A DNA stretch of 64,000 bases, taken from Roseomonas gilardii subsp. gilardii (GTDB lineage: Bacteria; Pseudomonadota; Alphaproteobacteria; Acetobacterales; Acetobacteraceae). The notes below the pieces were generated by a model. It worked only from the letters and a program-made list of their open reading frames with translations. It did no database searches and was not told where the DNA came from. The translations under genes and the position numbers were made by a program. The DNA lies in assembly GCF_023078375.1 (NCBI RefSeq), contig NZ_CP095554.1:992001-1056000 (forward strand). The letters are read 5' to 3'. Within the stretch, counting starts at the first letter, position 1. Each line of letters begins with the position of its first letter. This document shows, in pieces, positions 13,461 through 60,650 of this stretch.

Positions 13461-13493
13461 CACGGCGCGGCTTCTGCCGTCGCTCCCGTTGCA

Positions 13494-13586
13494 TCCCCGG
13501 GGAGGCTCCGCCTGCCCCCGGAACCCCCACCGCTCAGGGAGGCAGGGGCCTCCCCGAGACCCCGCCTTGAGTTGGCGCTGGTGGGA
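13494..13586. repeat. Hairpin repeat element, copy a
   Basis: This element lies between convergent genes (lgoD-like and MFS). It has the family plan: a GC hairpin (13496-13519), a linker like GGAACCCCCACCGC, a 7-bp stem GGGAGGC/GCCTCCC with loop AGGG (13537-13554), and the tail CCCCGCCTTGAGTTGGCGCTGG. The linker and tail match the other copies while the stem sequences differ. Confidence 0.7.
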
Positions 13587-13660
13587 TCAGCAAGACACCA
13601 TTTCCGCGCTGGTGGTGTCCTCGGTCGCCGGAGAGCCATGCTTCCCGGCGTGGTCCGGCG

Positions 13661-14947
13661 TCACTCCGCCGGTTGCATTTGTGGCCGGCGGTAGAGCGTG
13701 GCGACCAGCAGGGCGGCCACCAGGCAGAAGGTGCCGGCCACATAGAGGGCGGGCAGGTAGGTGGAGAACTCGGTCCGGCTGAACCCGGCGCCGAAGGCGG
13801 CGGTGGCGGCGCCGAGCTGGTGCCCGGTGAAGATCCAGCCGAAGACCAGCCCCGCCTTTTCCGGGCCGAAGCGGTTGGCGGCGAGACGCACGGTCGGCGG
13901 CACGGTCGCCACCCAGTCGAGCCCATAGACCACCGCGAAGACGGAGAGCGCGTAGACGTTGAACTCGGTGAAGGGGAGGTAGAGCAGGGAGAGGCCGCGG
14001 AAGGCGTAGTAGGAGGCCAGCAGCCAGCGGTTGTCGTAGCGGTCGGACAGCCAGCCCGACAGGATCGTGCCGGCGAAGTCGAAGATGCCGATCACCGCCA
14101 GCATGCTCGCCGCCCCGACCGCCGCCACGCCGTAATCGCCGCAGAGCGCGATCCAGTGCGTCTGGATCAGACCATTGGTGCTGAGGCCACAGACATAGAA
14201 GGTCAGGAACAGCACCCAGAAGGTGTAGCTGCCGGCTGCCTCCCGCAGCACGCGGAGAGGGGAGAGGAGGAGGTTGCCCAGCCCCTGCTCACGCGGTGGC
14301 CCTGCCTGCTGCACGGAGGTCCCATAGGGCGTGAGGCCGAGATCCGCGGGCCGGTCGCGCATCAGCAGCAGCACCACGACCATGGCGAAGGCCAGCGTGC
14401 CCAGCACGAAGACCAGGGCGGTGCGCCAGCCATAGGCCGTGCTGAGGCTGGCCAGGATGGGCAGGAACACGAGCTGTCCGGTGGCATTGCTGGCAGTGAG
14501 CAGCCCCACCACGAAGCCGCGCCGTTCCGAGAACCAGCGCGTGGCCACGGTGGCGCCCAGCACGATCGCCGTCATCCCCGTGCCGAGGCCGACGATGACG
14601 CCCCAGAGCAGCACGAGCTGCCAGAGCTCCCGCATCAACAGCGAGCCGAGCAGCCCGGCGGAGATCAGCGTCAGGGCGCAGAGGATGACGCTGCGCACCC
14701 CGAAGCGGTTCATGAAGGCGGCGGCGAAGGGGCCCATCAGCCCGAACAGGGCGAGGCGCAGCGCGAAGGCGGTGGAGATGTCGGCGTTCTGCCAGCCGAA
14801 TTCCTGCTGCAGGGGCTCGATCATCACCCCGGCGGAGCCCATGGCCCCGGCGGTGGCGAGCATGGTGAGGAAGGTCGCCCCCGCGACCACCCAGCCGTAA
14901 TGGATGCCCTTCTGCCGCAGGCCCGTGGCCAAGGCGGTGGAGATCAT
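13661..14947 (-). CDS. MFS transporter, oxalate/formate-antiporter-like
   Basis: This 428-residue, twelve-helix major facilitator begins with HYGWVVAGATFLTMLATAG, the start typical of the oxalate/formate antiporter (OFA) and monocarboxylate-type MFS groups, and has the MFS loop motif after helix 2 (MNRFGVRSVI). Its start overlaps the stop of the MarR regulator at 14944 by four bases, so the two form a small operon. The neighbours deal with sugar acids and carboxylates, which agrees with an organic-anion substrate, but this is not proven. Confidence 0.85.
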   Translation of the reverse strand: MISTALATGLRQKGIHYGWVVAGATFLTMLATAGAMGSAGVMIEPLQQEFGWQNADISTAFALRLALFGLMGPFAAAFMNRFGVRSVILCALTLISAGLLGSLLMRELWQLVLLWGVIVGLGTGMTAIVLGATVATRWFSERRGFVVGLLTASNATGQLVFLPILASLSTAYGWRTALVFVLGTLAFAMVVVLLLMRDRPADLGLTPYGTSVQQAGPPREQGLGNLLLSPLRVLREAAGSYTFWVLFLTFYVCGLSTNGLIQTHWIALCGDYGVAAVGAASMLAVIGIFDFAGTILSGWLSDRYDNRWLLASYYAFRGLSLLYLPFTEFNVYALSVFAVVYGLDWVATVPPTVRLAANRFGPEKAGLVFGWIFTGHQLGAATAAFGAGFSRTEFSTYLPALYVAGTFCLVAALLVATLYRRPQMQPAE

Positions 14948-18970: not shown

Positions 18971-20503
18971 ATGTTCGACAACCTCGATTCGCTGATGCAC
19001 GGCTTCGGCGTCGTGCTCACCTTCCACCACGTCGCCATCATCATGGGCGGCGTGCTGCTGGGCATCCTGGTCGGCGTGCTGCCCGGGCTGGGCGCGCCGA
19101 ACGGCGTGACGCTGCTGCTGCCGCTGACCTTCTCGATGGACCCGGTCTCGGCCATCATCCTGCTCACCAGCCTCTACTGGGGCGCGCTGTTCGGCGGTTC
19201 CACCACCTCGATCCTGTTCAACATCCCGGGTGAGCCCTCTTCCGTCGCCACGACCTTCGACGGCTATCCCATGGCCCGGAACGGGCGGGCCACCGAGGCG
19301 CTGACCTATGCCTTCCTCTCCGCCGGCTTCGGCGCGCTGGTGGGCGTGGTGGTGATCACGCTGCTCTCGGGCTTCGTCACCTCCTTCGCGCTGCGCTTCG
19401 GGCCGCCGGAATACTTCGCGGTCTATCTCCTGGCCTTCGCCTCCTTCATCGCCTTCGGCGGCGGCGCGCCGCTCAAGACGCTGGTCTCCATCTGCCTGGG
19501 CTTCGGCTTCGGCATGGTGGGCATGGACACGGTGTCCGGCTCCATGCGCCTGACCTTCGACATCCCCGCGCTGATCAAGGGCATCTCCTTCCTCGTCGTG
19601 GTGATCGGCCTTTTCGGCATCGGGGAACTGCTGCTGACGCTGGAGGAAGGGCTGGAGTTCAAGAGTGTCCGCGCCAAGCTGAACCCGATTGAGATCCTGC
19701 GCGCCGCCGCGCGGATGCCGCGGTACATCCTCGCCATGCTGCGCGGCAGCGCCATCGGCGTCTGGATGGGCATCACCCCCGGCGGGCCGACCGCGGCCTC
19801 CTTCATGTCCTATGGCATCGCCCGCAAGGTCTCGCGCCGCCGCGACCATTTCGGCAAGGGCGAGCCGGAGGGCGTGATCGCGCCGGAAACGGCGGACCAT
19901 TCCGCCGGCACCGCCGCCATGCTGCCGATGCTGGCGCTGGGCATCCCCGGCTCCGCCACCTCGGCGGTGATGCTGGGCGGGCTGATGATCTGGGGCCTCA
20001 ACCCCGGCCCGATGCTCTTCATCGAGCAGAAGGATTTCGTCTGGGGCATGATCGCCTCGATGTATCTGGGCAATGTCATCGGCGTGGTGCTGGTGCTGGC
20101 CACGGTGCCCTTCTTCGCGGCGCTGCTTTCGGTGCCCTTCACCATCATCGGCCCGATCATCGTCACGGTCTGCCTCGCCGGCGCCTATACCGTCGCGAAC
20201 TCCGCCTTCGACCTCTGGATCATGCTGGTCTTCGGCGTGGCGGGCTATGTCATGAAGAAGCTGGACTACCCGATCGCCCCGCTCGTCCTGGCCATGGTGA
20301 TCGGCGACAAGGCGGAGGACGCCTTCCGCCAGTCCATGCTGCTGTCCCAGGGTTCGATCGGCATCCTGTGGTCCAACCCGCTGGTGGGAACGATCTCCAC
20401 CATCGCTGTCCTGTTCCTGCTGTGGCCCATCGTGGCGGCCATCCTGGGCTGGCGCCGCGCCGGCAAGTCGGCCCTGGCCGCGGGGTCGGGAAGCCAGGCG
20501 TGA
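18971..20503 (+). CDS. tctA: Tripartite tricarboxylate transporter large permease TctA
   Basis: This 510-residue membrane protein has the TctA signatures GVLPGLGAPNGVTLLLPLTF (about residues 36-55) and, in the second half, GAAMLPMLALGIPGSATSAV-like sequence around residues 315-340. It has roughly eleven or twelve transmembrane segments. GAGGAG precedes its ATG at good spacing. It uses the proton or sodium gradient to move the ligand captured by TctC. The gene is followed by a 352-base gap made mostly of hairpin repeats. Confidence 0.92.
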   Translation: MFDNLDSLMHGFGVVLTFHHVAIIMGGVLLGILVGVLPGLGAPNGVTLLLPLTFSMDPVSAIILLTSLYWGALFGGSTTSILFNIPGEPSSVATTFDGYPMARNGRATEALTYAFLSAGFGALVGVVVITLLSGFVTSFALRFGPPEYFAVYLLAFASFIAFGGGAPLKTLVSICLGFGFGMVGMDTVSGSMRLTFDIPALIKGISFLVVVIGLFGIGELLLTLEEGLEFKSVRAKLNPIEILRAAARMPRYILAMLRGSAIGVWMGITPGGPTAASFMSYGIARKVSRRRDHFGKGEPEGVIAPETADHSAGTAAMLPMLALGIPGSATSAVMLGGLMIWGLNPGPMLFIEQKDFVWGMIASMYLGNVIGVVLVLATVPFFAALLSVPFTIIGPIIVTVCLAGAYTVANSAFDLWIMLVFGVAGYVMKKLDYPIAPLVLAMVIGDKAEDAFRQSMLLSQGSIGILWSNPLVGTISTIAVLFLLWPIVAAILGWRRAGKSALAAGSGSQA

Positions 20504-20512
20504 TCGTCCGTG

Positions 20513-20821
20513 TCCGGCCCCGGGAGGAGGCCCTGCCTCCTCCGGTCCCCCTCCGCTGGGGACATGGTATGTCCCCAGACTCCGCCTTGCGTTGGCACGG
20601 GGCGGAGGCGTTGTCCGGGAGACCATGCCGGAGCGCGCATGGACGAGCGGAACTCGTAGAACACAACAGGGCGTCCGCGATCGCGGCATCCGCCGTCGCC
20701 GAAGGGCTGAGCCCTTCGGCGCGATCCCGCTGCAGTGAAAGCCAACGCATGGAAGGTCCAGGAAACTCAGTTTCCTGGCGGATAGGGGGGCCGGGGGAAA
20801 GGTGGAGCCTTTCCCACGGGA
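20513..20821. repeat. Hairpin repeat elements, copy pair b (two units in inverted orientation)
   Basis: The 352-base gap 20504-20855 holds two units facing each other. The left unit (20513-20597) has stems GGAGGAGGC/GCCTCCTCC with loop CCT and CTGGGGACAT/ATGTCCCCAG with loop GGT. The right unit (20698-20821) has GCCGAAGGGC/GCCCTTCGGC with loop TGA, CCAGGAAAC/GTTTCCTGG with loop TCA, and GGGAAAGGT/GCCTTTCCC with loop GGA and one T-G pair. The linkers (GCCAACG, GGTCCAGG, GCGGATAGGGGG) are shared with other copies. I see no gene in the gap. Confidence 0.75.
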
Positions 20822-20855
20822 CAGCGCAACGCCCGAACCGAAAGCGGAACGACGC

Positions 20856-23122: not shown

Positions 23123-23147
23123 TCACGGCGGCGTCGCGCCTGTGTTC

Positions 23148-23242
23148 CAGCCCCGGGAGAGAGGCGCTGCCTCTCCGCCCGGACCCCCACTCCGCCGGGG
23201 ACCGAGGCCGGTCCCCGGACCCCGGGCCTGAGTTGGTGCTGG
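23148..23242. repeat. Hairpin repeat element, copy c
   Basis: One unit lies between convergent genes. Stem 1 is GAGAGGC/GCCTCTC with loop GCT, then the linker GGACCCCCACTCCG, then stem 2 CCGGGGACC/GGTCCCCGG, and the tail ACCCCGGGCCTGAGTTGG. The stems differ in sequence from copies a, b and f but pair in the same places. Confidence 0.7.
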
Positions 23243-23297
23243 CGGCTGCCGTTGATCTGTCGCCCGGCCCTTGGACGCAGGTGGGCCGGCGGGGTTC

Positions 23298-25118
23298 CTA
23301 CCCTGCCGGCACCACCGGCAGCACCAGGTGCGAAGCGCGCCCGGCATCGACGAAGAGCGTGTTGGTGGCCGCCCGCATCCGCCGCCAGTTGCCTTCCGGC
23401 TCGCCGGTCTGCGGGTTCAGGTCATAATGTGGGAACTCGCTCGATGCGATGTCCAGCCGGATGCGGTGCCCTGCCTTGAACAGATTGGCCGTGGGGAAGA
23501 GCTCCACCGTGACGGGCACGGGCACGCCCGGTTCCAGCGGCACGGGGCGTGACGGGTCCTCGCGGTAACGGCAACGCAGGATGCCCTCGCAGAGATTCAT
23601 GGCGAAGCCCTGCGGGTAGTCTTCGCTGGGCGGATACACATCCACCAGCTTGGCGGTGATGTCGGTGTCCGGCGCGTCGGAGGCGATCCAGAGATGCGCC
23701 ACCACGGGGCCGACCGCCGTCACGTCCCCGGCCAGGGGCTCCGTCTGGAAGACCAGCACATCCGGGCGGGAGGCCAGCGGCAGGAAGGGAGCGCGATGCG
23801 CGTACATGTCGGGCCGTTCGCGCTGGTCATAGGGGCCGCCGGCGATCAGCGGCTCCATCGAGGTGATCGCACCGCCCACGGTCGGCACCGGATTGGCGGG
23901 GTCGGCGGTCCAGGACAGCGGCGCCGCGGCTTCCGGCGGCGCGTCCTCCCGCAGCCCGCCATCGCCATGCAGGTGGAAGCGGGTGAAGCGCGTGTCCGGC
24001 AGCGGCCAGTCCGTGGCGTGCCGCCAATGGCCGCCATGTTCCAGCCGCCCTTCCACATTCTTCCGGCCGGAGCCACCGCCCATGACGAAGACGCGCACGG
24101 GCGGATCGGAATCCACGCCATTCGCCTCGCCCTTCAGCCAGCGGTCGAAGAAGCGCAGGCGGAAGGCGCGCCAGTCCCCGGCCCAGGAATCGATGGTGGC
24201 CTCGGGGCCGAACTCCACCTCGCCGAAGGCGGTCTGCGAGCGGTTGCCATGCGTCCAGGGGCCGAGGATCAGCGAGGGCCGCCCACGCCCGGCATCGCGC
24301 AGCCCCCGGAAATTCTCCACCGCCGTGCGCGGATAGGGATCGTACCAGGAAGACATGTGCACCATGGACACATCGGCATAGCGGCCGTGCCAGCCCTTGG
24401 CATAGATGCCGAGGCGCTGCCAGTATTCGTCGAAGGCGCCGCGCTGCCACTGCTCGAAGAGATAGTCCTCGTAATCCGGCGCGTGCCGCACCGGGGAATG
24501 GCCGGGCTTCCAGGGCCAGCGGGCGAACCAGTCATGCAGGCTCTCGCCCGCGAAAGCCGCGCTGCGCACCGGGTCGGCGATGGTTTCCGGCGCGAGGCGC
24601 CCCTGGTTGAAGGCCCAGGTCGCCTGCTTCAGCTCGAAGGCGCCGCCACGCCGGATGCCGCCGTTCCAGGCATCGGAGAAGCCGCCGGAATCCAGGATCT
24701 GCGCCGCGAGGCCCGGCGGGTCGAGGCAGCCCAGCGCGGCCTGGGTATGGGCCGCGTAGCTCAGCCCCATCGTGCCGATCCGGCCGTCGCACCAGGGCTG
24801 TTCCACGATCCAGGCGCAGCAGTCGTAGCCGTCCTCGCCATCGGCGAGGTACTTCACGAACTCGCCCTCGGAACCGTAGCGGCCCCGGCAGTCCTGATAG
24901 ACGACGGTATAGCCGGCGGCGTTGAAATACGCCGCGATCGCCTCCCGCTTCACGGGGACGGGGTCGGCGGCGGTACGCTCGGAGCGCGAGACCTCGCGCT
25001 TGCCATAGGGCGTGCGCTCCAGGATGGTGGGCCAGGGGCCTTCGCCGTCCGGAAGATAGATATCCGTGGCGAGGCGGACGCCGTCGCGGCAGGCCATCCT
25101 GTACTCGGTGCGGCGCAT
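23298..25118 (-). CDS. CocE/NonD family hydrolase (X-Pro dipeptidyl-peptidase-like)
   Basis: This 606-residue serine hydrolase has the CocE fold: an N-terminal alpha/beta hydrolase with ERTPYGK, CRGRYGSEGEF and the nucleophile in GLSYAAHTQ, a cap domain, the histidine region GPWTHGN, and a C-terminal jelly roll of the X-Pro dipeptidyl-peptidase type (HRIRLDIASSEFPHYDLN near the end). Members cleave esters, amides or X-Pro peptides. Its ATG overlaps the GNAT stop (TGATG); a GTG lies one codon upstream. Together with the peptide-binding protein at 25645 this suggests a peptide or amide substrate. There is no clear signal peptide. Confidence 0.85.
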   Translation of the reverse strand: MRRTEYRMACRDGVRLATDIYLPDGEGPWPTILERTPYGKREVSRSERTAADPVPVKREAIAAYFNAAGYTVVYQDCRGRYGSEGEFVKYLADGEDGYDCCAWIVEQPWCDGRIGTMGLSYAAHTQAALGCLDPPGLAAQILDSGGFSDAWNGGIRRGGAFELKQATWAFNQGRLAPETIADPVRSAAFAGESLHDWFARWPWKPGHSPVRHAPDYEDYLFEQWQRGAFDEYWQRLGIYAKGWHGRYADVSMVHMSSWYDPYPRTAVENFRGLRDAGRGRPSLILGPWTHGNRSQTAFGEVEFGPEATIDSWAGDWRAFRLRFFDRWLKGEANGVDSDPPVRVFVMGGGSGRKNVEGRLEHGGHWRHATDWPLPDTRFTRFHLHGDGGLREDAPPEAAAPLSWTADPANPVPTVGGAITSMEPLIAGGPYDQRERPDMYAHRAPFLPLASRPDVLVFQTEPLAGDVTAVGPVVAHLWIASDAPDTDITAKLVDVYPPSEDYPQGFAMNLCEGILRCRYREDPSRPVPLEPGVPVPVTVELFPTANLFKAGHRIRLDIASSEFPHYDLNPQTGEPEGNWRRMRAATNTLFVDAGRASHLVLPVVPAG

Positions 25119-37258: not shown

Positions 37259-37355
37259 TGGGACGCTCCTGCGAATCCCTTCATACCCGCCCAACATCGC
37301 CACGGCCAAATGCCGCCGCCCAGCCCCGGTTGCGCTTCACGTCCGGCGTTGCCCT

Positions 37356-37689
37356 GTCCCCGGGGGACAAGGCTCCGCCGTCGACGCAGTGCGTCGACCC
37401 CCCGGTCCCCCTGATCCGCCAGGAACCTGGTCAAACGTATACGTTTGACCCTGGACCTCCCATTCGTTGGTGCTCTCCGGCGACTGTGGGCGCCACCAGC
37501 GCGAACACGGTGTTGTTTTTCTTTTCGGGAGCCCCGCTGATCCACCTGCCCCCAGGATCAGCCCGCAGGCTGACGCCCACCACCAATGTCAACGAAAGCC
37601 CGGGGTCCGGGGACCGGCTCCGGTCCCCCATCATGGTCATGGGCGGAGTGGGGGTCTGGGGGCGAGACGGCGCCTTGCCCCCGGGGGCC
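37356..37689. repeat. Hairpin repeat elements, copy pair d, with a 22-bp perfect palindrome
   Basis: The gap 37259-37719 has no gene. Two inverted units fill it. The left one (37356-37475) has the stem GTCGACGCA/TGCGTCGAC with a one-base loop, the linker CCCGGTCCCCCTGATCCGCC, CCAGGAACCTGG, and then a 22-bp perfect palindrome at 37429-37450, before the tail CATTCGTTGGTGCT. The right one (37589-37689) has TCAACGAAAGCC, the stem GGGGACCGG/CCGGTCCCC, the linker GGCGGAGTGGGGGTCTGGGG and a final CCTTGCCCCCGG. The middle holds a T-run at 37513-37526. Confidence 0.7.
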
Positions 37690-37719
37690 AGCCACGAAGC
37701 GCGACGCCACCCGCCGGGC

Positions 37720-40570: not shown

Positions 40571-40638
40571 TGTCAGCGAACGGTAACGAACCGAGGGCAG
40601 GGGAGGAGTCGGGGCAAGACGGGGCCTTGCCCCCGGGA
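40571..40638. repeat. Hairpin repeat element, degenerate copy e
   Basis: This copy lies between the convergent MhqD-like and GT87 genes. It keeps the tail TCAGCGAACGGTAACGAACC, a shortened middle, and the end hairpin GGGGCAAG/CTTGCCCC. Stem 2 is not clear, so this looks like a decayed unit. Confidence 0.5.
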
Positions 40639-40688
40639 GCACGGCGATGCGCGATGGGCAGGTAGCGGCGGCCTTCCTGCCCCTGGCG

Positions 40689-42460: not shown

Positions 42461-45400
42461 ATGGCGACCACCAACAGCAGGCCCGTCGCGGTGGCGGACA
42501 CGGCTGCCGTCTCGGAGGACGGGGTGCTGCAGGCCACGGGCAACGTGCTGTCCAACGACCGGGACGCGGATGGGGACGCGCTGACCGTCACCGCCGTGAA
42601 CGGGCTGGCCGCGGGCGTGGGCACGACCATCGCCGGCACCTATGGCAGCCTCGTGCTCGGCGCCAACGGCCAGTACACCTATGTCCTGGCCAATGCGCAG
42701 GCGAATGTGCAGGCGCTCGCCGCCGGCCAGACGGTGACGGAAACCTTCACCTACACGATCTCCGACGGGCAGAGCCATGCCGATGCCGGCGAGAACCTGA
42801 TCGCGCAGTCGGAAGCCTTCGACGATGCCTCCTGGGTGCTGTTCAACGGCATCGGAACCCTGCCCACCGTCACCAGCAATACCGCCACCGGACCGACCGG
42901 CACGGCGACGGCCGATCTGCTGACCCTGACGGATGGCAGCGGCATCTACACCGACACCGCCGTCAGCGGGCAGTACACCTTCAGCATCTGGGTGCGGCTG
43001 GTCAGCGGCGACGGCAACTTCGCCTTCAACTACTATGACGGAACCAGCGACAGCATCCAGTCCGCGACCGCGACCGGCGAATGGCAGCGCTTCAGCTGGA
43101 CCTTCACCGGCAATGGCAGCAGCGAGGCCAATGTCGCCATCCTGCACGATCTCGCCTCCTCCCCCGGCAGTGTCTTCGAGATCTGGGGCGCGCAGCTCAA
43201 CAGCGGCGGCAGCGCCGGCACCTATGTCGCCACCACCGGCACCCCCGTCACCGCCACCACCGTCACCACGCAGAACCTGATCCCGCAGTCGGAAGCCTTC
43301 GACGACGCCTCCTGGGCGCATTTCACCGTCACGGGCACCCAGCCCACGGTGACGGCCAATGCCGCCACCGGCCCCACGGGCAGCGGTACGGCCGACCTGC
43401 TGAGCCTTTCCGGCATCGGCACCGGCATCTACGTCAACACGGCGGTCAGCGGGCAGTACACCTTCAGCGTCTGGGTCCGTCTGGCCAGCGGCGACGGGAG
43501 CTTCAGCTTCAACTACTACGACGGCAGCAGCAACCACCTCCAGTCCGCGACCGCCACCGGCGAATGGCAGCGCTTCAGCTGGACCTTCGACGCCAACGGC
43601 AACGGCAATGCCAATGTCGCCATCATGCACGACCTGGTCACCGCCACCTCCGGTGTCTTCGAGCTCTGGGGGGCCCAGCTCAACCAGGGCGCGGCGGCGG
43701 ACAGCTATATCGCCACGTCCGGCAGCGCCGTCACCGTCACGGGTTCCGGCACGGGGGACGAGACCGCCACCCTGACCGTCACCATCACCGGTGCGGCCGA
43801 CAGCAGCACCGGCGGCCCCGCCCTGCCCGTCGCGGTGGCGGACACGGCTGCCGTCTCGGAGGACGGGGTGCTGCAGGCCACGGGCAACGTGCTGTCCAAC
43901 GACCGGGACGCGGATGGGGACGCGCTGACCGTCACCGCCGTGAACGGGCTGGCCGCGGGCGTGGGCACGACCATCGCCGGCACCTATGGCAGCCTCGTGC
44001 TCGGCGCCAACGGCCAGTACACCTATGTCCTGGCCAATGCGCAGGCGAATGTGCAGGCGCTGGAGGCCGGGCGGAGCGTCACCGACGTCTTCCACTACAC
44101 CGTCACGGACGGGGCGGGCCACACCGTCACCACGCAGAACCTGCTGCCCTATTCCGAGGCGCTCGACAATCCGGCCTGGGTGCGGTTCAGCGCGAACGGC
44201 GCCTCCGCCACGGTAATGGCGAACGAGGCGATGAGCCCGCTCGGCACCAAGACGGCCGAGCTGCTGAGCATGACGGGCTACGGCACCGGCATCTACACCA
44301 GTACCGCTGTCAGCGGGCAGTACACCTTCAGCGCCTGGATCCGCCTGGCCGCCGGCGACGGGCATTTCAGCTTCAACTACTATGACGGTGGCAGCGACCA
44401 CTTCCGGTCCGCCCTCGCCACCAGCGAGTGGCGGCACTTCACCTGGACCTTCACCGGCAGCGGCAGCAACAGCGCCAATGTCGCCATCATGCACGACCTC
44501 TCCACCCTCACCTCGGGCAGCTTCGAGATCTGGGGCGCGCAGTTGAATGCCGGCGCCACGGCGGATGCCTATGTCGCCACCTCCGGCACTCCCGTCACCC
44601 AGGCCAGCACCGGCCTCGCCACCATCACCTCCACCCTGACCGTCACCATCACCGGTGCGAGCGATACGCTCAGCGCCGCCTCCACCCTGTCCCTGGCCGA
44701 CCATGCGGACGGGGTCGTGGCGAATCTCGCGACCGGCCAATGGGCCCAGGCGCTGAAGATCATGCCGCTGGGCGATTCCATCACCTATGGCTGGCGGCAG
44801 ATCGACACCAACTACGGCTACCTCCAGGACAACCTGGCGAATGGCTACCGTCAGCCGCTCTGGGCGGATTTCACCGACCGGGACATGCTGATCAACTATG
44901 TCGGCTCCCAGAGTTCCGGCACCGACACCCTGCCCGATCACGACCATGCTGGCTTCCCGGGCTGGAAGGCGGACGAACTCGCCACCATCCTGCCCAGCCT
45001 GCTCAGCAGCAGCGCGCCCGATGCGGTGCTGCTCATGGCCGGCGCCAACGACGTCTTCCGTGAGGATGCGGCACAGAACACGGTCGGCACCGACATCAAG
45101 GCGATGCTCGATGCGATCGCAGCCGCGAATCCCAGCACCCATGTCTATGTCTCGACCATCCTGCCGACCGCCTGGGCCGATGCGTCGGAGGTGAACGCGG
45201 TCAACGCCGTCATCCGCTCGACCGTGCAGAGCGCCATCGCCAGCGGGCAGAAGGTCACGCTGGTCGAGATGCCCGGCGTCACCACCGCCGACATGTATGA
45301 CGGCATCCACCCGACCGAGGCAGGCTATGCCGAGATGGCGCAGTACTGGCTGAACGCCATCCTGACCGCCCAGGGAAACAGCGGCGGCACGCCCGGCGGC

Positions 45401-45805
45401 ACCGCCCAGGCCATCGCCTCCGGCATCACCTCGATCCTCGGCGGCAGTGGCAACGACCTGCTGATCGGCGACACGCGGGCGAACACGCTGAACGGCGCGG
45501 ACGGGAACGACCGCCTGATCGGCGGCGGGGGGAACGACACGCTGATTGGCGGCGCGGGGGCGGACGAGTTCGTCTTCCGCCCCGTGGCGGGAAATGTGGT
45601 GGTGCAGGATTTCAGCACGGCGGAGAAGGATGTGCTGGTCTTCGACGGCATCGCCGGGCTGAGCAACTTCGCCTCGCTGAGCGGCCATATCGCGCATGTG
45701 GGCAGTTCCACGGTGATCGACCTGTCGGGCTTCGGCGCTTCGGCGCAGATCACCCTGCAAGGCTTCACCGGCAGCCTGACCGCGGACAATGTCTGGTTCT
45801 CTTGA
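42461..45805 (+). CDS. Mosaic RTX surface/secreted protein with VCBS domains, beta-sandwich modules and an SGNH hydrolase
   Basis: This 1114-residue protein is built in blocks. A VCBS/cadherin-like domain occupies about residues 8-108, two beta-sandwich (carbohydrate-binding-like) modules about 110-440, a second VCBS domain 456-555, a third module 560-710, an SGNH hydrolase 760-975, and RTX nonapeptides (GGSGNDLLIGD, GGGGNDTLIGGAGADEF) near 1000-1040. All SGNH blocks are present: GDSITYG with serine about 773, GAND and DGIHP with the catalytic Asp and His. There is no N-terminal signal peptide; the RTX C-terminus implies type I secretion. AGGAGGG precedes the ATG. No type I exporter is in the window. 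It may deacylate surface or foreign polysaccharide. Confidence 0.9.
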   Translation: MATTNSRPVAVADTAAVSEDGVLQATGNVLSNDRDADGDALTVTAVNGLAAGVGTTIAGTYGSLVLGANGQYTYVLANAQANVQALAAGQTVTETFTYTISDGQSHADAGENLIAQSEAFDDASWVLFNGIGTLPTVTSNTATGPTGTATADLLTLTDGSGIYTDTAVSGQYTFSIWVRLVSGDGNFAFNYYDGTSDSIQSATATGEWQRFSWTFTGNGSSEANVAILHDLASSPGSVFEIWGAQLNSGGSAGTYVATTGTPVTATTVTTQNLIPQSEAFDDASWAHFTVTGTQPTVTANAATGPTGSGTADLLSLSGIGTGIYVNTAVSGQYTFSVWVRLASGDGSFSFNYYDGSSNHLQSATATGEWQRFSWTFDANGNGNANVAIMHDLVTATSGVFELWGAQLNQGAAADSYIATSGSAVTVTGSGTGDETATLTVTITGAADSSTGGPALPVAVADTAAVSEDGVLQATGNVLSNDRDADGDALTVTAVNGLAAGVGTTIAGTYGSLVLGANGQYTYVLANAQANVQALEAGRSVTDVFHYTVTDGAGHTVTTQNLLPYSEALDNPAWVRFSANGASATVMANEAMSPLGTKTAELLSMTGYGTGIYTSTAVSGQYTFSAWIRLAAGDGHFSFNYYDGGSDHFRSALATSEWRHFTWTFTGSGSNSANVAIMHDLSTLTSGSFEIWGAQLNAGATADAYVATSGTPVTQASTGLATITSTLTVTITGASDTLSAASTLSLADHADGVVANLATGQWAQALKIMPLGDSITYGWRQIDTNYGYLQDNLANGYRQPLWADFTDRDMLINYVGSQSSGTDTLPDHDHAGFPGWKADELATILPSLLSSSAPDAVLLMAGANDVFREDAAQNTVGTDIKAMLDAIAAANPSTHVYVSTILPTAWADASEVNAVNAVIRSTVQSAIASGQKVTLVEMPGVTTADMYDGIHPTEAGYAEMAQYWLNAILTAQGNSGGTPGGTAQAIASGITSILGGSGNDLLIGDTRANTLNGADGNDRLIGGGGNDTLIGGAGADEFVFRPVAGNVVVQDFSTAEKDVLVFDGIAGLSNFASLSGHIAHVGSSTVIDLSGFGASAQITLQGFTGSLTADNVWFS
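42481..42717 (+). repeat. 237-bp direct repeat, first copy (VCBS domain 1)
   Basis: This stretch reads as identical base for base to 43825-44061, offset by 1344 bases (448 codons). Protein modules between the copies diverge, so the identity points to recent duplication or gene conversion. Confidence 0.9.
43825..44061 (+). repeat. 237-bp direct repeat, second copy (VCBS domain 2)
   Basis: This is the second identical copy of 42481-42717. Recombination between the two would remove exactly 448 codons, keeping the frame and the SGNH and RTX parts. Confidence 0.9.
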
Positions 45806-50215: not shown

Positions 50216-50590
50216 ATGCCCATCTCCACCTACTTCCTGCTGATCAGCAGCATCGCCCTCGCCACCTTCTCCCAGGTGGTGCTCAAGATCGGCATGTCCT
50301 CGGAACCGGTTCAGCTCGCGCTGAGCCGGCGCCAGCCCATCGACACGGTGGCCTCCATCATCACCTCCCCCTGGGTCCTGGGCGGGCTGACCTGCTTCGG
50401 GCTGAGCGCGGTGGTCTGGCTCCTCGTCCTGTCGCGCATGAACCTGTCCCAGGCCTATCCCTGCGTCGCCCTAGGCTTCGTGCTGACCATGTGCGCCGGC
50501 TACTTCCTGCTGGGCGAGCCGATCAACCTGCTGCGGATCGGCGGCCTGTCCCTGATCCTCGCCGGCGTCGCCTGCGTCGCCGTCAGTTGA
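50216..50590 (+). CDS. Small EamA/SMR-type membrane protein, ArnE-like flippase subunit
   Basis: This 124-residue protein has four predicted membrane segments and the drug/metabolite transporter half-domain pattern with LSRMNLSQAYPCVALGFVLT and YFLLGEPINLLRIGGLSLIL. The length and pattern match ArnE/ArnF, which flip aminoarabinose-phosphoundecaprenol, more than multidrug SMR proteins. Only one subunit is encoded here, so it would act as a homodimer. It follows the membrane protein at 48758 after 18 bases. With HAD-UbiA it suggests that polyprenyl-phosphate-pentose is made in the cytoplasm and flipped outward. Confidence 0.75.
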   Translation: MPISTYFLLISSIALATFSQVVLKIGMSSEPVQLALSRRQPIDTVASIITSPWVLGGLTCFGLSAVVWLLVLSRMNLSQAYPCVALGFVLTMCAGYFLLGEPINLLRIGGLSLILAGVACVAVS

Positions 50591-50843
50591 TCGGCCCGGC
50601 CCCGCTCACCGGAGGAGCCTGAACGGCCAGCCCCGGAAGATGCTGCCCCGAGATCCGCTCCGGGGGGCTGGGCTGCGGAAAAACCTGGGCTGGGGCGGCA
50701 CGGCCCGTGCGATCCCTGTCAGCATCCTGCCAGCCGTGACGGCCTTTCCTGAATCCGGAAGGGCCGGACCGGTTCACCGGGGCGACCCCGGAGGCAGGTC
50801 CGGCCTGGCCCGCCCAGACCGGCTGACCGAGGGGAGACGCCAT

Positions 50844-52058
50844 ATGAGCCAGGGCAGCCTTGCCGCCGAACGGCCCGCCGTGAGCCAGACCGCCTTCACC
50901 GTGCTGGCGGCGCTCAGCCTCTGCCACCTGCTCAACGACATGATGCAGTCGCTGCTGGCGGCGCTCTTCCCCGTCCTGAAGGCGAGCTACGGCCTCAGCT
51001 TCACCCAGATCGGCTTCCTCGCCTTCACCTTCCAGCTCACCGCCTCCCTGCTGCAACCGGCCGTGGGCTGGTACACCGACCGCAAGCCGCAGCCCCGCTC
51101 CCTGCCGGTCGCCATGGGCTTCACCTTCTGCGGGCTGCTGCTCCTGGCCTGGGCGGACCACTACTGGTCGCTGCTCTGCGCGGCCGCCATGGTGGGCATG
51201 GGCTCCTCGGTCTTCCACCCGGATTCCTCCCGCATCGCCCGGATCGCCTCGGGCGGGCGGCACGGGTTGGCGCAGTCGATCTTCCAGGTCGGCGGCAATG
51301 CCGGCTCGGCGGCCGGCCCATTGCTCGCCGCCTATGTCGTCCTGCCGCGCGGCCAGGGCAGCGTCGCCTGGTTCTCTCTCGCCGCGCTGCTGGCCATGTC
51401 ACTGCTCTGGTGGGTCGGCGGCTGGGCGCATGGCCAGCTTCTCAGCCGCCGCCGCGCCATCGGCCACGCCGCGGCGCCGCATGCCGCCCTGCCGCGGCAG
51501 AAGGTCATGATGGCTATCGCCGTGCTCGGCATCCTGGTCTTCTCGAAGTACATCTACATGGCCAGCCTGACGAGCTACTACACCTTCTACCTGATGCAGA
51601 GCTTCGGCCTGACCATCCAGGAGGCGCAGGTCTATCTCTTCCTCTTCCTCGGCGCCGTCGCGGTCGGCACCGTGGTGGGCGGGCCGGTGGGCGACCGCTT
51701 CGGGCGCAAGGTGGTGATCTGGGGCTCCATCCTCGGCATCCTGCCCTTCACCCTGGCGCTGCCCTATGTGAACCTGTTCTGGACGGCGGTGCTCACCGTG
51801 CTGATCGGCCTGATCCTGGCCTCCGCCTTCTCGGCGATCCTGGTCTATGCGCAGGAACTGGTGCCGGGCCGCGTCGGCGTGATCTCCGGCCTGTTCTTCG
51901 GCTTCGCCTTCGGCATGGGCGGCCTCGGCTCCGCCCTGCTCGGCATCCTGGCGGATGCGAAGGGCATCACCTTCGTCTACCACCTCTGCTCCTTCCTGCC
52001 CCTGCTCGGCATCCTCACCATCCTGCTGCCGAATCTGGAGCGGCATCGGGCAGGGTAG
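50844..52058 (+). CDS. MFS transporter, fosmidomycin-resistance (Fsr) type
   Basis: This 404-residue, twelve-helix efflux protein has the Fsr pattern: LSLCHLLNDMMQSLLAALFP at helix 1, SFTQIGFLAFTFQLTASLLQ, GMGSSVFHPDSSRIARIASG and, in the second half, GGPVGDRFGRKVVIWGS. ATG 50844 follows GAGGGGAG; the frame continues upstream without a ribosome site. It is separated from the lipid-sugar genes by 253 bases in which I see no gene. Fsr homologues export fosmidomycin or related small molecules; the natural substrate is not known. Confidence 0.87.
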   Translation: MSQGSLAAERPAVSQTAFTVLAALSLCHLLNDMMQSLLAALFPVLKASYGLSFTQIGFLAFTFQLTASLLQPAVGWYTDRKPQPRSLPVAMGFTFCGLLLLAWADHYWSLLCAAAMVGMGSSVFHPDSSRIARIASGGRHGLAQSIFQVGGNAGSAAGPLLAAYVVLPRGQGSVAWFSLAALLAMSLLWWVGGWAHGQLLSRRRAIGHAAAPHAALPRQKVMMAIAVLGILVFSKYIYMASLTSYYTFYLMQSFGLTIQEAQVYLFLFLGAVAVGTVVGGPVGDRFGRKVVIWGSILGILPFTLALPYVNLFWTAVLTVLIGLILASAFSAILVYAQELVPGRVGVISGLFFGFAFGMGGLGSALLGILADAKGITFVYHLCSFLPLLGILTILLPNLERHRAG

Positions 52059-52087
52059 GGGGCAACAGCCCCGTCGCGCCTGCGTTC

Positions 52088-52392
52088 CGGCCCCGGTGGA
52101 GGCCCTGCCTCCCCCGGCCCCCTCCGCTGGGGACATGGTATGTCCCCAGACCCCGCCTTTCGCTGGCACCGGGTGGCAAGGTCAGCCAGCGGCCTGATCC
52201 CGAAGGGCAGGCGGATCGGCGAGGCTCCAAAAGAAGAAAAACACCATCTCCACGCGCGCGGCGCCGGCAGCCCGCCGGAGAGCCTGGCTCTCCGGCGCGA
52301 CCCGGCATCAGCAAGCGCCAACGAACCGGGTCCAGGGTGCGCAGCGTCCTGGCGGATGGGGGTCTGGGGGGAAGGCGGAGCCTTGCCCCCGG
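52088..52392. repeat. Hairpin repeat elements, copy pair f (best preserved)
   Basis: The gap 52059-52440 between convergent genes holds two inverted units. The left (52088-52169) has GGTGGAGGC/GCCTCCCCC with loop CCT and one mismatch, then CTGGGGACAT/ATGTCCCCAG with loop GGT. The right (52274-52392) has GCCGGAGAGC/GCTCTCCGGC with loop CTG, then CCAGGGTGC/GCGTCCTGG with loop GCA and two G-T pairs, then AAGGC/GCCTT with loop GGA. Linkers match copy b while stems differ. Between the units I see no gene. Confidence 0.78.
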
Positions 52393-52440
52393 AAGGCAGC
52401 GGCCTCCACGGAGCAAAGGCCGGAAGCGACAGCCCCCGCC

Positions 52441-54699
52441 TCAGGCCGGCGCCGCATCCCCCCGGGCTGCACGTCGCCGCGCCGGGGCACGCCCCGCGCC
52501 TGCCTTCCTGGGCCGGCCCTTGCCCGGGCCTGCCGCCTTCGTCCGGCCCGGCGTCTTCCCCTGCTGCCCGTCGATCCAGGCGGAGATGGCGGCAGCGCTT
52601 GCCTGTGCCTCCTCCGGCAGGGCCACGCCACGCTGCTCCGCCAGCTTCCGCGCGAAACCGAGCTGCGCCGCGCTGGGTGCGCGGCCGGTCCCTGCCTCGC
52701 CACCGCCTTCCCGGCGCGGCGCGTGCTCGTCGAGGAAGGCGCGGCAGGCCGTCGCGGAGCGTGTGTAGCCCTTGGGTGGCGCGATCCCCTTGCGCTTCGC
52801 CAGGCTGGCCACGAAACGCGCCATGGCCGGGGTCGGCGCACCTTTCCCGCCCGGCGCGCCGCCACTGGCCAGGAGCGGCGCCTCGCCCGAGGCCGCGCGC
52901 TCGGTCAGCCGCGCGATGATCCGGCTGGCCTGGGCGCAGACGGCGTCGATCGCGCCCATCATCTCCTGCTGCCCCACCAGCACCTCGTCCAGCAGCCGTT
53001 CGAGCTGCGCCGTCACGCCGGGATCGACCAGCGCCGGATCGGCCTGTTCCAGAACGGCGAAGAGCTGGAGCCCGCGTTCCGTCGGCACGATGTGCTTGCC
53101 GTCGATGCGCAGGAAATCCTGCGCCTTCAGCCCACGGATGATCTCGGCCCGCGTCGCCGGCGTGCCGATGCCCTTGGCCTCCTTCAGCCGGTCCTGCAAC
53201 GCCTCGTCCCCGACGAAGCGCCAGGCGTTCTGCATCGCCTCGATCAGCGTACCCTCGTTGTAGCGCGGCGGCGGGCGCGTCTCCTTCGCCTCCACCTTCG
53301 CCTCGCTCAGCGCGGCAGGCTCGCCATCGCGGAGAGCGGGGAGGAGCTGCGCATCCTCGCCCTTCTCCTCGGCGGGCACCCATTCGGGGAAGGCGGCGCG
53401 CCAGCCCATCTCCAGCGGCTGCCGCCCCACGGCACGGAAGGCGTGGCCCTTCACGTCGATCGTGGCCGTGGTCTGGCGATAGCGGAAATCCGGCATCATC
53501 GCCGCCAGATAGGCGCGCGCGATCACGTCGAAGAGCTTGCGCTCATCCGCCGAAAGGCGCGGCCAGGCCTCGCGCAGCCGCTCCACCGTGTTGACGTTCG
53601 GGATCACCGCGTGGTGGCTCGCCCCCGCCAGGCCCTTGTCGTGGAAGGCCCCGCTGGCGCCGCGCCGGACCAGCGGCGGCTGCGGTACGGGAATGCCGCT
53701 CCAGGCCCGCCCTTCCCGCAGGGCCGCCACGATGCGCGGCACATCAGGGATCAGGCTTTCCGGCAGGTAGCGTGTCTCGGCGCGGGGATAGGTGATGACC
53801 TTCTTGCCCTCGCCGTCATAGAGTTCCTGCGCCACCTCCAGCGTGCGGGCCGCCGACCAGCCGAAACGCGAGCCGCAGAGGCGTTGCAGCGAAGGCAGGT
53901 CGTGCAGGCGCGGCGGCGATTGCCGCTTCTCCTCGACCTTTACCGCGAGCGGCCCCTGGAAGCCCTCGGCCAGGGCGGCGATGGCTTCGGCCTCCTCGCG
54001 CTTCAGGATGCGCTCCTTCGGCGCGTGGCGCATGCGCAGCCGCCCGGCCTCGACGGCGGCACTCGCCACCACCTCGAAATAGCTCTGCGGCACGAAGTCG
54101 CGGATCTCGATCTCCCGCCGGCAGACGATGGCCAGCGTCGGCGTCTTCACCCGCCCCACGCCGATCACCGCGCGTGCACCCTTCGCCAGCGTCACCGTAG
54201 CGGTGCGGGTGAGGGAGAGGTTGTAGATCTGGTCCGCCTGCCGCCGCGCCACCGCCGCCGCGTAGAGCCGCGCATGCTCGGCATTGGGCCGGGCATGGGC
54301 GAAGGCGTCGCGGATGGTCTGCGGGTCCTGCGCGGTGAACATCACCCGCATCACCGTACCGCGATAGCCATAGTGCTCCAGGATCTCCTGGCCGATCAAC
54401 TGCCCCTCACGGTCGCAATCCGTGGCCAGCCAGACGCGCTTGGCCGAACGCAGGGCCGCGCGGATCGCCTGTAGCTTGGACGCCTTGTTCCCGCCCGTGG
54501 CGGGGCGCGTGCCGTAGAGCGACTCCGGCCGCAGCAGTATGGGGCTCCAGCGCTTCCAGGCCGGGTTCGCCTCCTCGGGCTCCACGAGGTCGAAGAGATG
54601 CCCCTCCGCCGGCAGCACGGCGCCGTAACGTTGGCCCACCGCGGCGCGGATATCCTTGGCCTGGCTGGTCTTTTCGGCGATGACGATCTGCTCGGCCAT
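52441..54699 (-). CDS. topB: DNA topoisomerase III
   Basis: This 752-residue type IA topoisomerase has the Toprim domain with catalytic Glu in VIAEKTSQAKDI and the metal-binding DCDREGQLIGQEIL, then the gate domains with the active tyrosine in KVITYPRAETRYLP (about residue 320). Near the C-terminus are two copies of a roughly 40-residue module (ARFVASLAKRKGIAPP and LGFARKLAEQRGVALP, each followed by a helix with A-x-I/C-R/S) and then a Lys/Arg/Ala-rich tail. ATG 54699 gives the normal start MAEQIVIAEKT. It unlinks single-stranded DNA intermediates. It is divergent from the MucR-like gene. Confidence 0.9.
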   Translation of the reverse strand: MAEQIVIAEKTSQAKDIRAAVGQRYGAVLPAEGHLFDLVEPEEANPAWKRWSPILLRPESLYGTRPATGGNKASKLQAIRAALRSAKRVWLATDCDREGQLIGQEILEHYGYRGTVMRVMFTAQDPQTIRDAFAHARPNAEHARLYAAAVARRQADQIYNLSLTRTATVTLAKGARAVIGVGRVKTPTLAIVCRREIEIRDFVPQSYFEVVASAAVEAGRLRMRHAPKERILKREEAEAIAALAEGFQGPLAVKVEEKRQSPPRLHDLPSLQRLCGSRFGWSAARTLEVAQELYDGEGKKVITYPRAETRYLPESLIPDVPRIVAALREGRAWSGIPVPQPPLVRRGASGAFHDKGLAGASHHAVIPNVNTVERLREAWPRLSADERKLFDVIARAYLAAMMPDFRYRQTTATIDVKGHAFRAVGRQPLEMGWRAAFPEWVPAEEKGEDAQLLPALRDGEPAALSEAKVEAKETRPPPRYNEGTLIEAMQNAWRFVGDEALQDRLKEAKGIGTPATRAEIIRGLKAQDFLRIDGKHIVPTERGLQLFAVLEQADPALVDPGVTAQLERLLDEVLVGQQEMMGAIDAVCAQASRIIARLTERAASGEAPLLASGGAPGGKGAPTPAMARFVASLAKRKGIAPPKGYTRSATACRAFLDEHAPRREGGGEAGTGRAPSAAQLGFARKLAEQRGVALPEEAQASAAAISAWIDGQQGKTPGRTKAAGPGKGRPRKAGAGRAPARRRAARGDAAPA

Positions 54700-60516: not shown

Positions 60517-60650
60517 CCGGGGCCCGGGGGAAGGCTCCGCCTTGCCCCCGATACCCCCATCCGCCAGGAGCCGGTGGCTCCTGGACCTGCCTTTCATGGG
60601 TTCTCGTTGTGGCCGGATCGCGCCGGAGAGGCAGCGCCTCTCCTCCGGGG
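60517..60650. repeat. Hairpin repeat element, copy g
   Basis: The gap 60255-60673 between convergent genes has no supported gene. It holds a short A+T-rich stretch at 60325-60360 and one repeat unit. The unit has AAGGC/GCCTT with loop TCC, the linker CGATACCCCCATCCG, CCAGGAGCC/GGCTCCTGG with loop GGT, the tail ACCTGCCTTTCATGGGTTCTC, GGATCGCGCC and a third stem GGAGAGGC/GCCTCTCC with loop AGC. Confidence 0.72.

Follow-up and report, generated by a model that had tools for sequence, protein, structure and literature searches.

A dispersed composite hairpin repeat at gene ends in Roseomonas gilardii, concentrated around parAB-gidAB

Between two convergent genes of Roseomonas gilardii subsp. gilardii lies a run of hairpins that could be a termination signal, a structured RNA or a mobile repeat, and the question addressed here is which of these it is. 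The window analysed is a stretch of 64,000 nucleotides (contig NZ_CP095554.1, positions 992,001 to 1,056,000). An earlier note, made from its letters, had located the element at 52088..52392; self-BLAST places the copy at 52086-52392. This segment is one full copy of a composite hairpin repeat, ~310-340 bases long as a family, in which two inverted half-units of ~70 bp, each with hairpins H2 and H3, enclose a centre with hairpin H1 and an A-rich strip (Table 1). Within a half-unit, H2 (GGTCC[AGG...CCT]) is connected to H3 by GGCGGATnGGGG. Both arms are matched by one profile, in opposite directions, and hence form inverted terminal repeats, as in a MITE; with a spacer between its two inverted palindromic units, the element also follows the plan of a REPIN. 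Lone half-units occur too. In the consensus of aligned copies, CGTTGGC, GGACC and CCCCCnCTCCGC of the left arm return in inverted form as the linkers GCCAACG, GGTCC and GCGGATGGGGG. The arrangement of A-rich strip, H1, left H3/H2 and inverted right half-unit is common to the aligned copies, both in a set of 18 and in a set of 130 distinct copies (38 from this genome, 54 from Roseomonas mucosa, 21 from the related genome G003 and 17 from the related genome G013, assigned by locus number). Beyond what the earlier note described, this is one composite element of ~310 bp with inverted arms and mutually inverted linkers, belonging to a family centred on the presumed origin. The linkers that the note had called conserved stand as parts of an ordered whole (profile E 4.7e-73, the copy being itself in the profile), whereas alone they do not exceed chance: GCCAACG occurs 14 times (13.7 expected), and with one mismatch allowed GCGGATGGGGG occurs 10 times (7.7 expected) and GGCGCGAYCC 47 times (57 expected). 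Folded as RNA, the 307 nt are more stable than dinucleotide shuffles (z -2.55; 0/100 shuffles as good), and the same holds for a DNA fold (z -2.82; 1/100 as good).

Table 1. Features of the element at 52086-52392 and other copies in the window
Feature	Position	Strand	Evidence and remarks
Full composite element	52086..52399	+	nhmmer full-length profile, 244.8 bits, E 4.7e-73; this copy is among the profile's 18
Flanking convergent genes	50640-52058 and 52441-54699	+ and -	Gene calls
Hairpin H3L (outer, left arm)	52093..52117	+	Sequence; alignment columns 27/41 covary
Hairpin H2L, CTGGGGACAT-GGT-ATGTCCCCAG, 10 bp	52127..52149	+	Sequence; covariation tests
Left half-unit (H2-H3), inverted orientation	52085..52152	-	CM R1, 47.5 bits, E 2.1e-8
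A-rich strip of centre, CTCCAAAAGAAGAAAAACACCATC	52225..52248	+	Sequence; minus strand T-rich; similar strip in 18 aligned copies
Hairpin H1, GCCGGAGAGC-CTG-GCTCTCCGGC plus one C-G pair	52273..52297	+	Sequence; compensatory changes, columns 213-217/223-227
Linker GCCAACG	52317..52323	+	Inverted counterpart of left-arm consensus CGTTGGC (consensus fold); cross-arm pairs not significant
Right half-unit	52329..52398	+	CM R1, 79.2 bits, E 5.6e-15; row of A1; A1 pair counts
Hairpin H2R of right half-unit	52332-52352		
Linker GGCGGATGGGGG of right half-unit			
Hairpin H3R of right half-unit	52366-52390		
Full copy	20507..20833	+	4 bp past stop of gene 18971-20503; tandem genes; same site occupied in R. 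mucosa
Copy spanning whole profile, degenerate H1	37345..37701	-	Tandem genes; same site occupied in R. mucosa
Degenerate copy, one half-unit	13490..13664	+	Convergent genes
Left-arm partial copy	23141..23299	+	Convergent genes
Right half-unit fused to H1 remains	60517..60650	-	Apparent internal deletion; convergent genes
Weak seventh site, H3-like remnant	40582..40642	+	CM R1, E 0.03; convergent genes

The element is not alone. Self-BLAST of the window pairs 20513-20819 with 52086-52392 over the whole length (E 1e-31), and links one or the other of these to partial matches at 13.5, 23.1, 37.5 and 60.6 kb. R1, a covariance model of the half-unit, finds nine half-units at six sites with E <2e-5 (13490, 20513+20755, 23147, 37353+37622, 52085+52329 and 60517), three of which (20755, 52329 and 60517) are among the 29 rows used to build it. 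The dispersed family of at least seven sites that had been read from the letters is thus recovered as six clear sites and the weak seventh at 40582; its five sites between convergent genes become, by our gene calls, four of the six clear sites, or five of seven when 40.6 kb is counted. Across the own genome there are at least 67 BLAST matches (the best 40 of 271 candidates scored) and at least 83 half-unit matches to R1 (83 of 8328 first-look candidates scored). Nor are the copies mere identical duplications: the most similar own-genome pair stands at 0.88, and with no near-identical copies there is no sign of recent movement.

Some variants and other repeats were seen along the way. A shorter version, ~220 bp end to end and made of two inverted half-units, occurs at L039:9967-10186, L040:14062-14284 and L063:8729-8951, one of them in the terminus half of the chromosome. 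The nested palindrome GTCGACGCACTGCGTCGAC is inserted in H3 at ~37380-37402 of the window, near 11180 of L046 and near 17450 of L052, and another lies within H2 of L052, L082 and L084. The large gene 42491-45805 has long internal repeats at 74-81% identity (window 42481-44692), and an exact 548-bp duplicate, possibly part of a recent insertion sequence, occupies two distant tandem spacers (L035:12167-12714 = L042:7573-8120).

Stems were said to differ between copies and yet stay paired, and they do: examples are CCAGGAAAC/GTTTCCTGG at 20.76 kb and CCAGGAGCC/GGCTCCTGG at 60.56 kb, as well as GCCGAAGGGC and GCCGGAGAGC in H1. In A1, an alignment of 29 half-units drawn from several genera, bases pair in 95.8% of cells and 10/20 pairs have changed on both sides, columns 10/21 holding GC 15 times, CG 9, AU 3 and UG 2. 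Its covariation score is 0.296, against 0.123 in shuffled alignments (0/500 as high) and at most 0.088 for a slid structure; the number of further pair types is unremarkable (21 against 19.0, reached by 74/500 shuffles). The lower five H2 pairs are invariant in A1, in large part because its rows were chosen by patterns that largely fix them. An in-house R-scape-like test of the 130-copy alignment, in which substitutions were re-thrown on a FastTree tree, gives 8/103 structure pairs with E <0.05 within the structure, so that a test of the kind that had been proposed comes out in favour of covarying local hairpins. Among all column pairs, the two strongest lie in H2R and H3L and are the only structure pairs with E <0.05. 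Two pairs outside the structure pass as well (41-53 and 27-53, E 0.002-0.003), which indicates that some family-tree signal leaks through the test. Covariation above the phylogenetic background is confined to the local hairpins, and pairs of the centre and across the arms are frequently broken, none of them being significant. A cross-arm dumbbell fold obtained from RNAalifold, in which changes mostly break pairs and none is significant, is accordingly kept only as a possible DNA cruciform. Six pairs of copies at the same site in two species, taken over the whole fold, differ by double changes, of which 18 stay paired and 15 do not, and by single changes, of which 38 stay paired and 87 do not, from which it follows that the whole fold is not tightly kept.

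Two G-T pairs in one stem had been taken as a sign of selection at the RNA level. The pairs are present, in H2R, but the conclusion drawn from them is not upheld: over the 67 pairs shared by the plus- and minus-strand folds there are 279 G-T cells and 230 A-C cells, the latter being G-T on the other strand (29 against 21 pairs), and as the two are about equal, RNA-level selection is not shown and there is no strand preference. A stronger excess on the plus-strand fold (933 G-T against 460 A-C) was discarded, since G-U pairs were permitted when this fold was chosen, and the minus-strand fold gives 425 against 485. Columns 272-282 hold G-T in 105/130 copies, and this pair is absent from the shared-fold set.

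Palindrome-repairing mutation could give much of the pairing, and is a serious rival explanation of the covariation. Template switching at quasi-palindromes would copy one arm from the other, so that mutation rather than selection kept the stems paired and no function were needed. The near equality of G-T and A-C deviations is what a DNA-level process would produce, and several adjacent pairs often change together; against this, H3 mostly keeps its loop orientation (right arm GGC 10 and GCC 1; left arm GCC 42 and GGC 6), and the half-unit plan recurs in 19/59 sampled genera of the family. On balance we regard template switching as a fairly unlikely source of the pairing. H1 loops occur together with their reverse complements (ATG 34 and CAT 20; GAT 13 and ATC 5); flipping of the H1 hairpin was considered and set aside, as close copy pairs have no excess of flipped loops.

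Covarying hairpins might also betray a trans-acting or riboswitch-like RNA family, and a centre pseudoknot that pairs CTGATCC/GGATCAG with GGGAGC/GCTCCC may be read from the alignment. Such an RNA seems very improbable to us, given that the centre and cross-arm pairs are often broken with none significant, that there is no strand preference, and that copies lie after genes and not before them. Rfam supplies no known RNA family either: it gives 0 matches above the gathering score in the window, and the one match near the copy with E up to 1 (E 0.13, 52020-52056) falls outside it.

The position of the copies relative to genes was surveyed with gene calls made in this analysis (1124 genes, 85% coding) over 60 evenly spaced 20-kb stretches and the window. 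The 38 sampled sites, or 36 without the two shared by L044 and the window, comprise 21 in convergent spacers, 12 in tandem spacers, 1 in a divergent spacer and 2 at an edge. In the half of the chromosome nearer the presumed origin, copies occupy 17/73 convergent, 10/280 tandem and 1/75 divergent spacers (Fisher p 7e-8 for convergent spacers versus all others). Copies usually begin ~5-45 bp past a stop codon and often fill an entire convergent spacer; exceptions start at 284 bp in L031 and 416 bp in L039, and a few overlap called genes. As expected of REPINs, the location is extragenic with few divergent sites; overlaps with called genes exceed 5 bp at four sites (7, 8, 54 and 126 bp). The REP-like family that the earlier note had among its suggestions fits what is found, namely dispersed, inverted palindromic doublets past stop codons. 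Single half-units, too, are oriented: in 16 matches from other Roseomonas-related records, two of them in G088 (Roseomonas acroporae NAR14), H3 faces the nearest stop in 14/15 scorable cases, and in G088 itself it does so in 13/19 scorable of 20.

This placement, with divergent spacers almost never occupied, is what might be expected if the elements were mainly bidirectional terminators or modules for processing mRNA 3' ends, selected site by site, with dispersal secondary. Several observations speak against it. Most convergent spacers have no element (63/65 in the far half and 56/73 in the near half), occupancy differs between orthologous gene pairs, and the 12 elements in tandem spacers run with the genes in 7 cases and against them in 5. 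In its canonical form the terminator reading is not supported, no hairpin of the 52086-52392 copy being followed by a U-tract, and none of 5 terminator-like sites at 50-62 kb (4.5 expected by chance) lying inside the element. Intrinsic terminators share the GC-rich hairpins just past stop codons and differ from the Roseomonas element in having a U-tract. A primary role in ending transcripts is possible, though we think it rather unlikely.

How widely is the family distributed? The exact pattern of H2 plus linker occurs in 95 stretches of a genome contig collection, and among the 80 named ones 51 belong to R. mucosa ATCC BAA-692. The remaining named matches fall in other Roseomonas, Pseudoroseomonas, Plastoroseomonas and relatives, with some in unrelated phyla, of which three loci of one Faecivivens MAG weakly fit the profile and the others do not. 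With the full element as query, 10/40 genomes match, that is, the own genome and 9/14 other genus members, and 0/25 genomes of other genera (at most 18 candidates scored per genome). Among the other genus members, full-length matches come from G003, G004 (R. mucosa) and G013 only, and six others give pieces of at most 70 bp. The half-unit model R1 reaches further, with matches in 20/60 genomes of the bacterial family including the own one, or 19/59 genera. A phage collection that may omit records close to the own genome gave no match; in a plasmid collection that may likewise omit such records, one 68% copy without annotation was noted at NZ_CP087720.1:8263-8546, a plasmid of Roseomonas sp. 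OT10.

Aligned blocks of G003 and R. mucosa share for the most part 87-96% identity with the own genome, and between these species the copies come and go. In 186 comparisons of orthologous spacers, 16 are occupied in both genomes, 11 in the relative only, 4 in the own genome only and 155 in neither; the 11 and 4 amount to 9 and 3 distinct places, the comparisons are not all independent, and most loci of relatives were fetched for holding a copy. The spacer of the 52086-52392 copy (52058-52441) has a counterpart of 60 bp in R. mucosa. Conversely, spacer 50590-50640 measures 49 bp in the own genome and 485 bp, with a copy, in R. mucosa; and at 60.25-60.67 kb R. mucosa has a full copy, the own genome one with an apparent internal deletion, and G003 none. 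Of six same-site pairs, four have the relative's copy among the three most similar (ranks 1-3) and the other two have it at ranks 6 and 27, for which turnover or gene conversion is as good an explanation as insertion. Flanks were too diverged for readable junctions in the 8 site comparisons made for target-site duplications.

Copies also lie at points of rearrangement. The two sides of the 52086-52392 copy lie apart in G003, in opposite orientation, each ending in a copy (4014971-4015303 and 4044112-4044403), which would be the outcome if a segment of ~29 kb flanked by oppositely oriented copies had been inverted. In G004 (R. mucosa), blocks of L036 and L045 have other neighbours, and the joints lie at copies, though one of them, in L216, has no copy left. 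Synteny is also broken at places without a copy (in L036 and L046, compared with G003). The four origin-side stretches that were compared are split into several blocks between species, and a terminus-side stretch, L064:1-20000 (G000:C1:2592473-2612472), can be followed without a break through 20 kb of G003 and G004 (93% identity); the contrast rests on five stretches.

Set beside known repeats, the element resembles several classes. E. coli BIMEs combine palindromic units into mosaics that lie at gene ends, between convergent or tandem genes, and the likeness to them lies in just this mosaic plan and position, compared from description rather than sequence. NEMIS and ERIC are short, MITE-like inverted-repeat elements that are dispersed, intergenic and found at rearrangement points; the Roseomonas element is like them in each of these respects and differs in that no autonomous partner or target-site duplication was found and that the pairing inside each arm covaries. 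In the 1.2 Mb sample, inspection showed no close pair of inverted half-units with a gene between its members, as an autonomous element would have, and no transposase tied to the element was found. REPINs are shorter than ~310-340 bp.

As far as the consulted portion of the REPIN account goes (PMC3116915), those elements, which are mobilised by RAYTs, are likewise extragenic, many-copied inverted palindromic doublets with a spacer and with compensatory hairpin changes. Unlike them, the Roseomonas element has two hairpins per half-unit, bears no REP tag, is origin-centred and has no RAYT in 15 genus genomes. The GTAG/CGTC-tagged REP families, so far as they are set out in an excerpt (PMC3733652), also include sub-families with alternative complementary stem residues, form dimers in opposite orientation, and lie downstream of genes between unidirectional and convergent ORFs. 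According to the same excerpt, some GTAG families are confined to core genome regions and CGTC repeats are missing in Acetobacteraceae (PMC3733652). From these tagged repeats (PMC3733652, as excerpted) the Roseomonas element differs in having no tags at the feet of its five hairpins: within 8 nt of ten hairpin feet in the 130 copies, GTAG occurs 0-1 times, CTAC 0-1 and CGTC 0-3, and GACG is present in 20/130 copies at one foot (H3R right) and in 0-1 at the others. The RAYT gene itself (Y1_Tnp, PF01797) was found in 0/15 genus genomes (own and 14 others), a control search being positive in 5/14 named genomes. A RAYT-driven REPIN was accordingly rejected, both the gene and the GTAG/CGTC tags being missing. 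A literature search, with subscription journals mostly outside its coverage, found no description of this family.

These comparisons lead us to regard the family as probably a dispersed, non-autonomous, REPIN/BIME-like mobile palindromic element without RAYT, whose copies are tolerated or used as 3'-end hairpins. For such a RAYT-free mobile element, copies would spread as folded single-stranded DNA or by recombination, through a putative enzyme, and insertions would survive mainly at gene ends. Survivors would then act as strand-symmetric hairpins at the 3' ends of flanking mRNAs, either as stabilisers or as exonuclease stops after Rho-dependent termination, and those at gene ends may separate converging transcripts.

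Finally, the copies are unevenly spread. The family peaks on contig C1 near 0.78-0.86 Mb, and gidB lies at C1:779925 beside parA, parB and gidA, a locus that commonly marks the origin in Alphaproteobacteria. Merged R1 matches give 76 listed sites (82 of the 83 matches, from 83 candidates scored), 39 of them clockwise and 37 counter-clockwise of gidB; 70 of the 76 fall no more than a quarter chromosome away from it (Rayleigh p ~2e-15), and the density of sites decays with distance from parAB-gidAB on both sides. The evenly spaced sample agrees: R1 has 58 matches over the same 60 stretches, 53 near, 5 far and 0 in the 6 stretches of contig C2; stretches with any site number 19/27 near against 2/27 far (p 3e-6); and all 22 full-like copies (>100 bits) are within 0.98 Mb of gidB. 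In G003, 5/5 sites fall on the near side (p 0.03, from 9 stretches on either side), and in G013 19/22 do (p 0.07 by stretches, 10 on either side). The origin is inferred here and parABS is a proxy for it, as dnaA is 1.1-1.5 Mb from the centre of the distribution and neither GC skew nor gene strand bias of the own genome indicates a clear origin. Accessory DNA was considered as a cause of the empty terminus half and found no support in the single 20-kb stretch aligned there, which both G003 and G004 keep unbroken at 93%; sampled coverage of the far half is lower than that of the near half by G003 (0.159 against 0.348) and higher by G013 (0.227 against 0.143).

What the gradient means is less certain, since it is compatible with dosage, selection or chromosome folding. 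The hairpins might be chromosome-organising elements, recognised by a factor of the nucleoid or SMC type that loads near parABS and selects for origin-close copies. The two-sided decay of the listed sites and the lean of G003 and G013 in the same direction would suit this; sites turn over between species, however, and dosage or selection against rearrangement could yield the same gradient, so that we rate a chromosome-organising role as quite improbable. More speculatively, and with low confidence, a RAYT-free family whose density falls on both sides of parABS may mark, and perhaps help to define, an origin-proximal domain that rearranges through its repeats, the terminus half being nearly free of copies and, in one stretch tested, collinear.

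Under the reading preferred here, that of a mobile palindromic element, the family is of interest for two reasons. REP-like repeats are usually explained by RAYT transposases, and a covarying palindromic family with no RAYT found in 15 genomes is one whose mover can now be sought. Its concentration around the presumed origin is strong in one genome, with two others leaning the same way; this makes it testable whether replication, gene dosage or folding shapes where repeats reside, and may bear on why origin-side stretches are broken into blocks and the one terminus-side stretch is collinear.
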